This document shows positions 7,116-11,689 of a stretch of DNA of 64,000 nt, piece by piece. Both the position numbers and the translations under genes were made by a program. The first letter of the stretch is position 1. The number at the start of each line of letters is the position of its first letter. The notes beneath the pieces are model-generated. The model was not told the origin of the DNA. It worked only from the letters and a program-made list of their open reading frames with translations, and did not search any database. Origin of the DNA: Curtobacterium flaccumfaciens (GTDB lineage Bacteria; Actinomycetota; Actinomycetes; Actinomycetales; Microbacteriaceae). The stretch covers positions 310,001 to 374,000 of the forward strand of contig NZ_SNVW01000003.1 in assembly GCF_004361695.1 (NCBI RefSeq), given 5' to 3'.

Positions 7116-8797
7116 CGGGCGAGGGCTTCTGCGAGCGGACCCAGTGCGAGCACCGGGAAGTAGGTCAGTGCGGTGACCACGATCGCGACGCCGCCGAGCA
7201 GCACCACGAAGAGCGGTCGGTGGGTGGGCAGCGTGCCGACGGTCTCCGGCACGCGGTCCTGTGCGGCGAGCGACCCGGCGAGCGCCAGGACGAGCACCAT
7301 CGGCACGAAGCGACCGAGGAGCATCACGACGCCGAGCGAGGAGTTCATCCACGTCGTGTTCGCGGTCAGGCCGCCGAACGCCGAGCCGTTGTTGTTCGCA
7401 CCGGAGGTGAAGGCGTACAGCAGCTCGGACAGCCCGTGGTTGCCGGGGTTGAAGATCGACGTGCCGAGCACCTGTTCGCGGACCCCGGGGATGAGGAGCG
7501 ACATGCCGGTGCCGAGCAGCGCGAGCGTCGGGGTGACGAGGACGTACAGCGAGGCGAAGGTCATCTCGCGGGCCCGGATCTTCTTGCCGAGGTACTCGGG
7601 CGTGCGGCCGACGAGGAGCCCGCCGATGAAGACGGTGATCACGGCGAGCACGAGCATCCCGTAGAGGCCGGAGCCGACACCGCCGGGCGAGATCTCGCCG
7701 AGCATCATGTTGACGAGCGCCATCATGCCGCCGATCGGGGTGAAGCTGTCGAACATCCCGTTGACGGCGCCGGTCGAGGTCGCGGTCGAGGTCGTGCCGA
7801 AGAGCGTCGTGCCGAGGATCCCGAAGCGGACCTCCTTGCCCTCCATCGCGGCCCCGGCGACCTGGGTCGCGGTGCCGCCCGCGCCGAGCTCGGCGATGGA
7901 CATCACCGAGAGCGACACGAGGAAGATCGCGCCCATCACGGCGAGGATCGCGTAGCCCTGGCGGTCGTCGTCCACGAGCCGGCCGAAGGTGCGCGGCAGC
8001 GAGAACGGGATGACGAGCATGAGGAAGACCTCGACGAGGTTCGTCCACGCCTGCGGGTTCTCGAACGGGTGCGCCGAGTTGGCGTTGAAGTACCCGCCGC
8101 CGTTCGTGCCGAGTTCCTTGATCGCCTCCTGCGAGGCGACGAACCCGTCCGGGATGTGCTGCGCCCCGCCGGCGAGCGTGGCGACGTCGGTGCCGGCGCC
8201 CCACGACTGGATGACACCGCCGGCGACGAGGACGATCGCGAAGAGGAACGCCCCGGGCAGCAGGAGTCGACCGGTGACGCGCACGACGTCCACCCAGACG
8301 TTGCCGAGCGTGCCGGTGCGTCGACGGGCGAACCCGCGGACGAGTGCCACGGCGACGGCGAGCCCGACGGCGGCGGACAGGAAGTTCTGCACCGCGAGGC
8401 CGGCCATCTGCACCGTGTACCCGACGGTGACCTCCGGCGAATAGGACTGCCAGTTCGTGTTGGCGACGAACGACGCCGCGGTGTTGAACGCCAGCGACGG
8501 ACCGACCGCGGGGAGCCCGAGGTCACCCGGAAGCACGACCTGGATGCGCTGCAGCAGGTAGACGAGCAGGAGCCCGACGACGCTGAACAGCAGGACCCCG
8601 CGGAGGTACGCGGGCCACGACTGCTCGGCGTCCGGGTCGACCCCGATGATCCGGTACACACCGCGCTCGATCCGGGAGTGCCGGACCGGGGTGAAGATGC
8701 GGGCCATCCAGTCGCCGAGCGGCCGGTACGCCACGACCAGCAGCAGGACGACGGTGGCGACCTGGACGATGCCCGCCCAGACGTCTGCGGCGCCCAT
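7112..8797 (-). CDS. kdpA: KdpA, potassium-binding channel subunit
   Basis: A 561-residue, ten-helix-type membrane protein (E. coli 557) that selects and conducts K+. Filter-loop motifs can be seen: [49 protein letters not shown] and [14 protein letters not shown]. The start ATG overlaps the kdpF stop as TGATG. Pump genes run F-A-B-C with overlaps or 2-nt gaps, so they are one transcript. Confidence 0.98.
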
Positions 8798-8886
8798 CAG
8801 AACCGCTCCGGGCGCACGAGCGCCCAGACGAGGTAGACGACTGCGGCGATGCCGAGGACGGCGGCCGCGATGGTGATGCCGATCAC
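8797..8886 (-). CDS. kdpF: KdpF small membrane peptide
   Basis: A 29-residue peptide starting GTG and ending VRPERF, essentially one hydrophobic helix (AAAVLGIAAVVYLVWAL) followed by Arg-Pro-Glu-Arg-Phe. Length (29 residues, as in E. coli), the Y-L-V-x-A-L pattern and the position directly before kdpA identify KdpF, which stabilises the Kdp complex. Its GTG overlaps the stop of a further small peptide (GTGA) and its stop overlaps the kdpA ATG (TGATG). Confidence 0.9.
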   Translation of the reverse strand: MIGITIAAAVLGIAAVVYLVWALVRPERF

Positions 8887-8966
8887 AGCCGTTCCACCCC
8901 CTTGGCGATCAGTGCCACCACACCGAACACGGCGAGGACACCGGCGACGACGAACACGTCGAACAC
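8883..8966 (-). CDS. Extra small membrane peptide leading the kdp operon
   Basis: A 27-residue frame (GTG start) encoding one hydrophobic helix (VFVVAGVLAVFGVVALIA) ending KGVERL. CTGGAG lies 6-7 nt upstream as a ribosome binding site, and its TGA overlaps the kdpF GTG. From memory, actinobacterial kdp operons often carry such a second peptide before kdpF, usually unannotated. Function is unknown; it may be a second accessory helix or a coupling device for translation of kdpF. Confidence 0.65.
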   Translation of the reverse strand: MFDVFVVAGVLAVFGVVALIAKGVERL

Positions 8967-9123
8967 GAGGGACTCCAGAAGGATCTGCGGTGTCCGCGCC
9001 GGGTGACGCGGACCGGCACCACGTGTGGTGCCGACACCGATGCTGCGTCCTGCGCCGCGCCTCCAGTCCGGTCCTGACGGTTCCCTAACGCGCTCCTGAC
9101 GGACGCATGCGTCTCACTAACGC
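8967..9123 (-). promoter_or_regulatory. kdp operon control region: palindrome and direct repeats
   Basis: Upstream of the kdp genes lie three things. A near-perfect 20-bp palindrome CGGCACCACGTGTGGTGCCG at 9014-9033 fails only at its two central bases. TCCTGACGG occurs twice (9072-9080 and 9094-9102), 22 bp or two helical turns apart. CTAACGC occurs twice (9085-9091 and 9117-9123). OmpR-family regulators such as KdpE bind direct repeats on one DNA face, so the 22-bp pair is my candidate KdpE site. No clear -35/-10 pair was found. Confidence 0.45.
9055..9070. repeat. Half copy of the CCGCGCCTCCAGTCCG palindromic repeat
   Basis: CCGCGCCTCCAGTCCG here is identical to one arm of the long palindromes at 37391-37434 and 55592-55639. 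The partner arm is missing, so it cannot form the terminator hairpin seen there. It looks like a decayed copy of that repeat. Confidence 0.55.
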
Positions 9124-9163
9124 CCGCTCGCCCCGCGATCGCGGTGGCCCACCTGACGCCGTG

Positions 9164-9219
9164 TGATATGTTGGCTCCATCACGATCGGCCCGCTCGCCT
9201 CACGGCTCGGGCCGATTTT
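9164..9219 (+). ncRNA. Promoter and small terminator-like RNA before abi_2 gene (abiF-RNA-like)
   Basis: An extended -10 element, TG-A-TATGTT, sits at 9164-9172. Transcription should begin near 9179. The predicted RNA of about 41 nt starts AUCACG and is dominated by a hairpin: ATCGGCCCG (9185-9193) pairs with CGGGCCGAT (9208-9216) around a 14-nt loop CTCGCCTCACGGCT, followed by TTTTC. This is a self-contained promoter-hairpin-terminator unit. It ends about 20 nt before the start codon at 9241, and the Shine-Dalgarno (GGGGAAGG) lies in between. The abiF RNA motif known upstream of abiF/abiD genes has the same placement and a terminator-like last stem. Assignment to that motif is from memory and needs a covariance-model search. 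Confidence 0.6.
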
Positions 9220-9240
9220 CTCGTCCGGGGGAAGGCGGCG

Positions 9241-10266
9241 ATGGAGTACTCGAAGCCATGGCTGTCCATCGCGGACCAGATCGCGCAGCTGCGATCTCGT
9301 GGGCTGGCAGTGCCCGACCAGGACCGGGCGACCGGTCTGCTCCAGGAGGTCGGCTACTACCGCTTGACCGGGTACCTCCACCCGTTCCGGAGCACGATCG
9401 CTGACCGGCGAGCCGATCCGGAGGGACGGCGGCTCCTGAGCGACGACTACCGACAGGGGACCACGCTCGACCACGCGGACGCGCTCCTGTCCTTCGACCG
9501 GGAACTCCGGTTGCTCGTGATCGAGGGTGTCGAACGGATCGAAGTCGCGGTGCGGACCCGACTCGCCCACACCCTCGGTCGCAGCTCGGCCTTCGCCCAC
9601 GAAGAGGCCACCACGTTCACCGCCGCGTTCACGGAACCCCGAGAGGATCGTGACGGGGCCGTCTCGAGCGCACATGCCGAGTGGCTCGAGCGCGTGCAGG
9701 AGCGCCAGGCGAAGTCCGACGAGGCGTTCGTCGCACACTTCCGAGCGCGGTACGACGGGCGGATGCCGATCTGGGCGCTGACGGAGATCCTCGAGTTGGG
9801 GCATGTCTCGCGCCTCTACGCAGGCCTGCGGAACGACATCGCGACCGAGATCGCGGCCGAGTTCGGCGTCCCGACGAAGCGGCTCATGCAGAGCTGGCTT
9901 GCGTCCGTGAACTACGTCCGCAACGTGGCGGCGCACCACGCTCGCCTCTTCAACCGGAAGCTCGTCGTCGCACCGAAGCGTCCCAAGCGCTCCGAACTCG
10001 CGCTGCTCGACCACCTCGCCGGTCCGGAGACGCCGAAACAGTTCGGCGTCTACAACGCGTTGGCCGTCATGGCCTTCTTCCTGCGGGCAGTGCCGTCGGA
10101 CCGCGACTGGGCTGTCCGGATGGCGGCGCTCATGCGGGCCTTCCCGGACGCCCCGTCGATCGACGTCCGGTCGATGGGCGTCGCGCCGCGATGGTTGGAC
10201 GAGCCCCTGTGGCGACCGGAGCGATCCCCGGAGACGCTGGCGGGTACGAGTACGGAAACGTCCTAG
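9241..10266 (+). CDS. Abi_2 family (AbiD/AbiF-type) HEPN abortive-infection protein
   Basis: A 341-residue protein with the Abi_2 layout: SKPWLSIADQIAQLRSRG near the N-terminus, LLQEVGYYRLTGYLHPFR (33-50), LLSFDRELRLLVIEGVERIEVAVR (82-105), and the HEPN RNase motif NYVRNVAAHH with R227, N228 and H232. HEPN proteins of this type are RNases used in phage defence or toxin-antitoxin pairs. The ATG at 9241 is chosen over earlier in-frame starts because GGGGAAGG lies about 6 nt upstream and homology begins at MEYSKPW. The short tail after residue 300 is not conserved to my eye. Its stop TAG and the stop of the convergent WYL gene share the same four bases CTAG (10263-10266). The upstream small RNA is the likely partner. 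Confidence 0.88.
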   Translation: MEYSKPWLSIADQIAQLRSRGLAVPDQDRATGLLQEVGYYRLTGYLHPFRSTIADRRADPEGRRLLSDDYRQGTTLDHADALLSFDRELRLLVIEGVERIEVAVRTRLAHTLGRSSAFAHEEATTFTAAFTEPREDRDGAVSSAHAEWLERVQERQAKSDEAFVAHFRARYDGRMPIWALTEILELGHVSRLYAGLRNDIATEIAAEFGVPTKRLMQSWLASVNYVRNVAAHHARLFNRKLVVAPKRPKRSELALLDHLAGPETPKQFGVYNALAVMAFFLRAVPSDRDWAVRMAALMRAFPDAPSIDVRSMGVAPRWLDEPLWRPERSPETLAGTSTETS

Positions 10267-11207
10267 TCGCCGATGGCCCCGCGCAGTCGATCGGCCAGTG
10301 CGGCGGCGGCCGCGCGGAGCTCGTCCGGTCCCTCGACCGTGAAGTCGACCGCGGCAGCAGCGAAGGCCGCGGCGAGCGCCTCCCACGACCACGAGCCCCG
10401 CGTGAGACGGCACCGGTCGGGGCCGAGGGCCTCGAGCTCGGCGTCGTCGGGCAGGTAGGGCGCGACGGTCCGCGCCGACGTCTCGAGCACCGCTGTCCCG
10501 ACGCAGGGCCAGACGTCGTGGAGGTCGGACCCCTTGAAGCGTGCGGACACGAACGCCGACGGATCGCCGCCGGGGACCGGGCGCGGCACGAAGGGGACGC
10601 GTGTGCGGAGCCGCGGCACGATCCGGTCGATCCGGTGCGTGCGCCAGTCCTGCCGGTCGAGGTCCCAGTCGAGCAGGTACCAGCGGCCGTTCCGGGCGAC
10701 CACCGCGTGCGGTTCCACGTGCCGGGGCGTCTCGTCGTCGCCGTAGCCGAAGCGCATGACCTCGCGGAGGTGCACGGCCTCGGTGACCGCGACGAGGACC
10801 TCCGGGTCGGTGCGGGTGCGCCCGGTCGTCGTGACGGCCCGCACGGCGTCCATCCGGGTCCGGAGCCGCGCGGGCATGACCTGCCGGACCGTCGCGAGCG
10901 CCCGCGCGGCAGACTCGGCGATGTCCGCACCGGAAGCGGGTGCGACGGCGAGTGCCAGCGCGATGGCGACCGCCTGGTCGTCGTCGAACAGCAGCGGCGG
11001 CAGGTCCGATCCCGCTCCGAGCCGGTACCCGCCGGCGGGGCCGCGCAGGGACTCCACCCGGTACCCGAGCTCGCGGAGCCGCTCCACGTCGCGGCGGACC
11101 GTTCGCGGACTGACGTCGAGCCGTCCGGCGAGCTCGTCGCCCGGCCAGTCGCGGTGCACCTGCAGCAGCGAGAGCAGGGCGAGCATGCGCGACGAGGGTC
11201 CGGCCAT
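10263..11207 (-). CDS. WYL-domain transcriptional regulator (YafY/DeoR-like HTH)
   Basis: A 314-residue protein with an N-terminal winged helix (SRMLALLSLLQVHRDW, then LAGRLDVSPRTVRRDVERL) and a WYL domain around EPHAVVARNGRWYLLDWD with downstream DRIVPRLRTRVPF. WYL proteins sense small ligands or nucleic acid and often control the neighbouring gene. The start at ATG 11207 fits the family N-terminus; a GTG at 11237 would add ten residues. It diverges from a VOC-family gene across about 60 bp, so it probably controls that gene and itself. Confidence 0.88.
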   Translation of the reverse strand: MAGPSSRMLALLSLLQVHRDWPGDELAGRLDVSPRTVRRDVERLRELGYRVESLRGPAGGYRLGAGSDLPPLLFDDDQAVAIALALAVAPASGADIAESAARALATVRQVMPARLRTRMDAVRAVTTTGRTRTDPEVLVAVTEAVHLREVMRFGYGDDETPRHVEPHAVVARNGRWYLLDWDLDRQDWRTHRIDRIVPRLRTRVPFVPRPVPGGDPSAFVSARFKGSDLHDVWPCVGTAVLETSARTVAPYLPDDAELEALGPDRCRLTRGSWSWEALAAAFAAAAVDFTVEGPDELRAAAAALADRLRGAIGD

Positions 11208-11269
11208 GTCGATCAGTATCGTCCGAGAAGCAGACACGATCTGACCGCATCGCTCGACACACTCGTCCC

Positions 11270-11689
11270 ATGAGCATCGAGACCACGACCCACCTCAACT
11301 TCGACGGCGACGCCCGCGCGGCGCTCGACTTCTACGCATCGGTCTTCGGCGGCGAGGTCGCCGCGATGACGTACGGCGCGATGGGCGCCTCCGACGACCC
11401 GGACTGGGCGGAGCGGATCGTCTGGGGCCAGGTCGCCACCGACGCCGGCCTGCGGGTGATGGCGTTCGACGTCTGGCCCGGACAGCCGTACGACCAGGGC
11501 ACGAACGCCTTCTACGTGTACGTCCACGGGGACGACGCCGCCGAGGTGGAACGGTTCTGGGCCGCACTGGCCGAGGGCGCCGAGGTCCGGCAGCCGCTCG
11601 GGCCGTCGGCGTGGGCACCGCTCGCCGGCCAGCTGCGCGACCGCTTCGGCGTCGTGTGGCAGCTCGACGTCGCAGCGCCGCAGGAGTAG
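11270..11689 (+). CDS. VOC-superfamily (PhnB/glyoxalase-like) protein
   Basis: A 139-residue protein with the PhnB-like fold: THLNFDGDARAALDFYASVFGGEV at the N-terminus and FWAALAEGAEVRQPLGPSAWAPLAGQLRDRFGVVWQLD at the C-terminus (about 95-135). The paired beta-alpha-beta-beta-beta units usually bind a metal or a small ligand, for instance in drug-resistance or dioxygenase proteins. The substrate cannot be read from sequence. Divergent from the WYL regulator, a common pairing. Confidence 0.82.
   Translation: MSIETTTHLNFDGDARAALDFYASVFGGEVAAMTYGAMGASDDPDWAERIVWGQVATDAGLRVMAFDVWPGQPYDQGTNAFYVYVHGDDAAEVERFWAALAEGAEVRQPLGPSAWAPLAGQLRDRFGVVWQLDVAAPQE

Follow-up and report, generated by a model that had tools for sequence, protein, structure and literature searches.

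We analysed a 64,000-nucleotide (nt) stretch of the Curtobacterium flaccumfaciens genome (contig NZ_SNVW01000003.1, positions 310,001 to 374,000, forward strand; hereafter the window), in which a gene for an Abi_2 HEPN protein is preceded by an extended -10 element and a short hairpin RNA (Table 1). We refer to this RNA as type A, and to individual loci and genomes by L and G numbers. The protein matches PF07751 (Abi_2; E 6.9e-49) and the PADLOC AbiD model (E 4e-59), and its HEPN motif, R227-N-V-A-A-H232, is as an earlier sequence-only reading of this DNA had described it. R227, N228, A231 and H232 are invariant in an alignment of 44 sequences (A4, window included), and the form R[NDH]xxxH occurs in 100 of 102 homologous proteins, being absent from L051 and L107. 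Furthermore, the predicted structure (predicted local distance difference test score, pLDDT, 93.3) matches the fold of PbAbiF in PDB entry 8vz6, entitled 'PbAbiF dimer bound to ncRNA' (non-coding RNA), at 27-30% identity. The Abi_2 open frames of G955, G968 and G1082 have 329, 330 and 328 codons. The same earlier reading had called this the first of two such loci; the gene is the single PF07751 match in the whole genome, and a model scan of the window gave no second type A RNA (best score besides the hairpin's own antisense, 16.4 bits).

By direct reading, the RNA at 9179-9222 is ATCACGATCGGCCCG-CTC-GCC-TCAC-GGC-T-CGGGCCGATT-TTCTC. Its outer stem consists of nine Watson-Crick pairs and a basal G.U, so that the 9-bp hairpin with a U-rich end originally noticed just before the start codon is borne out, and the 14-nt loop described at that time contains an additional 3-bp helix (GCC/GGC) with a 4-nt loop. 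The segment 9175-9222 folds at -23.2 kcal/mol (z -5.4; none of 200 shuffles as good), the longer stretch 9175-9260 being less unusual (z -1.88), and this is the only site in the window to pass a simple scan for a fold below -18 kcal followed by TTTTC. A model of the RNA (R1) scores 69.8 bits here and finds its sole match in this genome at E <= 0.01. The hairpin is thus beyond chance by folding, and far more so by conservation. It was not listed by a promoter/terminator scan whose rules demand a perfect stem and a loop of 3-8.

The extended -10 element, also recognized in the first reading, lies six bases from the RNA, and the RNA ends 18 nt before the gene. Among 44 homologous loci, 34 have TGnTAnnnT at exactly six bases 5' of the RNA, and all 44 have TAnnnT at five to eight bases; no conserved letters of a -35 element were seen in these loci, and a sigma-70 consensus scan called no promoter. 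As the -10 element keeps a fixed distance in homologues, a spacing that suggests where the RNA begins, we place the putative 5' end at 9179. On the other side, the distance from RNA end to start codon has a mode of 17 nt, and a purine-rich site lies within 20 bases of the start codon in 43 of the 44 loci. The cassette is flanked by minus-strand genes for KdpA (upstream) and a WYL regulator.

Table 1. Features of the cassette, in window positions
Feature	Position	Strand	Basis
Extended -10 element TG-A-TATGTT	9164..9172 (hexamer 9167-9172)	+	read directly; conserved in homologous loci
44-nt type A hairpin RNA	9179..9222	+	fold z, conservation, pair counts, model R1
Parts of type A RNA: leader AUCAC, outer stem, inner stem, U-rich 3' end	outer stem 9184-9193/9208-9217; inner stem 9197-9199/9204-9206		
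Shine-Dalgarno-like GGGGGAAGG	9227..9235	+	read directly
Gene for Abi_2 (AbiD/AbiF-like) HEPN protein, 341 aa, ATG at 9241	9241..10266	+	PF07751, PADLOC AbiD, predicted fold
Codons of HEPN motif R227-N-x3-H232	9919..9936	+	invariant R, N, A, H in alignment A4
Stretch missing from sister genome G033 (L175): promoter, RNA, gene and last bases of WYL gene	9138..10275		BLAST

Conservation of the RNA and its relation to protein clades

A tblastn search with the window protein gave 118 matching loci, 106 of them distinct. Type A RNA is present in 43 of the 44 homologues above 45% identity, the sole miss (L021) being a match that starts only at residue 143; a more distant locus, L067 (40% identity), also has it, with a longer inner stem. 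These 44 loci with the RNA carry 28 distinct sequences, mostly beginning AUCA(C/U)G and ending UUUUCU. The leader and internal-loop letters are nearly constant, and differences fall mostly in the 4-nt loop and the neighbours of the inner stem. Pairs were counted in alignment A1, whose 28 rows are 27 distinct RNAs (all but that of L119) and the orphan copy L094. Here 99.5% of cells pair, and both sides have changed in three pairs; sliding the partner gives no more than one such pair. The outer stem has further paired changes over 43 distinct rows, in an alignment that was fitted to the model and in which the inner helix often misfits.

We scanned 96 Abi_2 upstreams for a hairpin with a T-run at or below -18 kcal, excluding six D2 loci whose gene start is misplaced: 82 passed, compared with 8 of 288 random places in these loci and 5 of 96 shuffles. 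Run over 87 loci, model R1 also reaches ten RNAs of other types before Abi_2 genes (E 0.0026 to 0.73). When 102 distinct proteins were typed by their upstream RNA, the 44 of type A, 13 of type B, 8 of type C and 5 of type E each occupied one side of one branch on the protein tree, and the eight RNA labels needed 12 changes on that tree as opposed to 54.6 for shuffled labels. At the level of sequence, then, RNA type follows protein clade. Four further Abi_2 genes also have an upstream RNA: type C in L161 and type B in L163 and L164 (all three by eye), and abiF in L162. Type B RNAs keep the letters of the internal loop unchanged, and their inner stem changes on both sides (by eye). D2-type RNAs (AAGGCT..GAGC...GGCTTCCTCAAAT) stand before the Abi_2 genes of L046-L050, L052, L041, L043 and L051.

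The sequence-only reading had suggested an abiF-type RNA. The Rfam abiF RNA (RF03085) is likewise a hairpin directly upstream of Abi_2 genes, of 37 positions, but its larger internal loop is on the 3' side and that of the window RNA on the 5' side, as read from the alignments. Its cut-off was reached in seven of 40 other loci (L061, L044, L058, L108, L162, L105 and L110), all of which have an Abi_2 gene of another clade. No abiF match was obtained in type A loci L002, L014, L018 and L067, none of the scanned D2 loci (L041, L043, L046, L048, L049) reached the cut-off, and types A, B, C and E gave no Rfam match where scanned. Because abiF proper occurs among the relatives and yet its model misses the window RNA, the latter is, as a candidate family, a separate subfamily at the same place, absent from Rfam release 15. 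A shared stretch of the loop, CCUCACGGCU, also gave a match to sX5 (RF02224) of 14 bits (E 1.5), well under the cut-off of 50. Four sX5-like loci were found from 274 genomes, one of them over the cut-off, and the surrounding open reading frames held no Abi_2 by eye; we therefore took the match as chance and dropped this kinship.

Joint presence and absence, and copies of the RNA alone

RNA and gene come and go together. Among 30 loci fetched, of 61 in the genus matching the WYL-gene site, both are present in five (window included) and neither in 25, within the fetched stretch. In L175, compared by BLAST with window positions 8601-11300, the flanks are 96% and 92% identical and only the stretch listed in Table 1 is absent; the genome concerned, G033, has neither an Abi_2 nor an RNA match. 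The sequence GCCCCGCG occurs at both ends of the missing stretch (9130-9137 and 10276-10283), and the flank blocks overlap by 8 bases; this repeat may be a duplicated target or a recombination microhomology. Within the genus, 30 of 66 genomes have an Abi_2 match, and within the family 76 of 398; relatives occur in 370 plasmid and 31 phage records, a distribution that fits a mobile or often lost gene.

The RNA is also found by itself. Across the family, the RNA model matched 40 of 398 genomes at E <= 0.01, and we retrieved the 30 best loci. In these the RNA is followed by a long Abi_2 match in 15, by a cut one in two (L145, L147), and by none, as judged by tblastn, in ten; L154-L156, which lie outside the tblastn check, have no Abi_2 at those places in the family-wide match list. 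The RNA is well formed in gene-less loci L127, L128, L129, L138, L144 and L146, two of which (L129, L144) hold apparent gene remnants by eye, and altered in L148, L150, L151 and L152. As the RNA is a small target, an intact copy beside a dead gene is weak evidence alone.

One genus of the window's family, g82, offers a more informative case, with an RNA match in six of 27 genomes. Five copies (L127, L128, L157, L158, L159) lie in one and the same gap, which follows purC and is bounded on its other side by a convergent GNAT gene (assigned by Pfam in L127, by alignment elsewhere). Each of the five has a -10-like TAnnnT at six or seven bases 5' of the RNA (by eye). Third positions of purC differ at 49-79 of 228 in all ten pairs of these loci. 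Near the RNA, L127, L128 and L157 differ at 0-1 of 20 bases upstream and 1-7 of 68-77 downstream; since these three share their flanks too, the contrast rests on comparing them with L158 and L159, in which the RNA differs at 0 and 2 of 44 positions, whereas 7-10 of 20 upstream and 12-20 of 59-68 downstream bases differ. Of the six g82 genomes that carry the RNA, four (G146, G1110, G1113, G1123) lack any Abi_2 match, and the other two (G450, G1112) each have two. The remaining copy, L160, is imperfect and is located outside this gap. The gap copies make a stronger case than an RNA beside a dead gene. The purC stop is 20 bases upstream, and a purC terminator could explain part of the pattern, though less so the constant leader and loop.

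Proposed function of the RNA-protein pair

We consider the cassette to be an AbiF-type toxin/RNA pair, that is, a HEPN toxin inhibited by RNA, and put the probability of this at about three in four. The conserved RNA and promoter, the HEPN motif, the fold of an RNA-bound relative, the clade-specific pairing and the joint presence and absence are the observations behind it, and type A RNA is probably the conserved partner of the HEPN protein and its antidote. The other steps (binding in this species, toxicity, neutralization, read-through and a phage trigger) we infer as follows. The extended -10 promoter would give a 44-nt RNA ending at the U-tract, and occasional read-through the toxin mRNA. 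The encoded HEPN protein, which is probably dimeric as PbAbiF is, would be an RNase-type toxin bound and held inactive by the RNA. If the supply of RNA were disturbed, as in phage infection, the protein would be freed and growth would stop.

Several results weigh against this interpretation or complicate the picture. No Rfam model, RF03085 included, reached its gathering cut-off in the window, and RF03085 gave no match up to E 10 in 9050-9300; L023, of type D1 by pattern, also fell below the RF03085 cut-off. When the hairpin threshold is relaxed to -12 kcal, passes also come from 16 of 288 random places and 14 of 96 shuffles, and six of 96 Abi_2 upstreams fail (L043, L061, L087, L089, L100 and L104); some of the failures are due to the scan itself, because L061 (an Rfam abiF match), L100 (type B) and L104 (type C) do carry RNAs. 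Typing of the 102 proteins relied for 85 of them on patterns drawn up with the sequences already in view and was done by hand for 10, and 7 were left as 'O'. The proteins of types D1, D2, F and O each fall in more than one clade (3, 3, 3 and 4 changes), and the protein tree is a quick one with support from the Shimodaira-Hasegawa-like approximate likelihood ratio test (SH-aLRT) only, in which clade A has a support of 93 on a branch that is not starred. Moreover, the gap of just 18 nt would permit one transcript across RNA and gene. Finally, seven of the ten outer pairs are invariant, so that of the covarying upstream stem sought in the sequence-only reading the stem is confirmed and the covariation is slight; for this reason, the main evidence for the putative RNA is its conservation.

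In a different explanation, the leader of the toxin mRNA contains the hairpin as a cis-acting attenuator or terminator that does no more than limit expression, and there is no partner RNA. Its position between promoter and ribosome site, its U-tract and the 17-nt modal distance to the start codon would all suit such a device. However, a terminator has no need of a near-constant leader and internal loop, the RNA type tracks the protein clade, the solved structure of a related protein has an ncRNA bound (8vz6), and RNA copies persist in genomes lacking Abi_2; we regard attenuation as unlikely. That the hairpin simply terminates a neighbouring gene, as its U-tract might suggest, is the least credible explanation of all: a conserved -10 lies directly in front of it, and we rejected the idea on finding the upstream KdpA gene on the opposite strand.

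A third explanation keeps the partnership and reverses its sense, the RNA being required for activity or phage sensing as an activator or scaffold. The bound RNA in the title of 8vz6 is by itself compatible with either direction of action; our comparison with PbAbiF covered the protein and its fold. Even so, we think this improbable. AbiF is reportedly a toxin with an RNA antitoxin. The sequence-only reading had left a choice between antitoxin and guide, of which antitoxin is the best inference. A Cas13-like guide would have a variable spacer, yet 28 distinct RNAs from 44 loci are nearly constant and contain no spacer-like variable stretch, so that a guide role is very hard to credit. Cas13 also has two conserved R-x4-H motifs per chain, whereas in the window protein R227..H232 alone is conserved; R105..H110 fits the pattern too, although the A4 rows shown have either H or Y at position 110. 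The order of promoter, small RNA, terminator-like hairpin and toxin gene resembles what is said of ToxIN, a type III toxin-antitoxin system, from which the cassette differs in toxin family and RNA, and in having one RNA copy with no repeats seen; similarity to ToxN was looked for only through general family scans of the window protein.

If the pairing is as we propose, the RNA partners of AbiF-like HEPN proteins extend well past a single Rfam family and change with the protein clade, a specificity that could be tested by swapping RNAs between clades. Such natural pairs also bear on how an RNA-inhibited HEPN toxin could become RNA-guided, and the gene-less copies would provide a direct test of RNA action in trans. 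More tentatively, type A RNA might be a trans-acting antidote that is also kept alone on chromosomes, as in g82, protecting against HEPN toxins of plasmids or phages (an RNA anti-addiction module), with the RNA subfamilies of Abi_2 genes having diversified along with the toxins; we think this possible but doubtful. Decoy RNAs of viruses were considered and rejected: in exact-pattern scans of viral contigs, which covered few forms only, the type A core had one match (L094) and the TTGCC form none, and of nine matches to a type B stretch none continues as RNA or has an Abi_2 match. In L094 the RNA lies 26 bases from the contig end, its sequence is by eye the same as that of L138, and the locus has no tblastn match to the window protein.

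The kdp-WYL region and plasmid copies

Several relatives (L046, L047, L049 and L052, set against L176, L178, L187 and others) have, at a distance of about 5 kb from this WYL gene, another Abi_2 gene that is accompanied by a D2-type RNA, as in G018 (C17:357282 and 362723), so that the kdp-WYL region may be a favoured place. Rhodococcus plasmids also carry the pair, next to a Fic family gene in L113 and L114 and next to a PemK/MazF toxin gene in L119, where the Abi_2 match is in two pieces.
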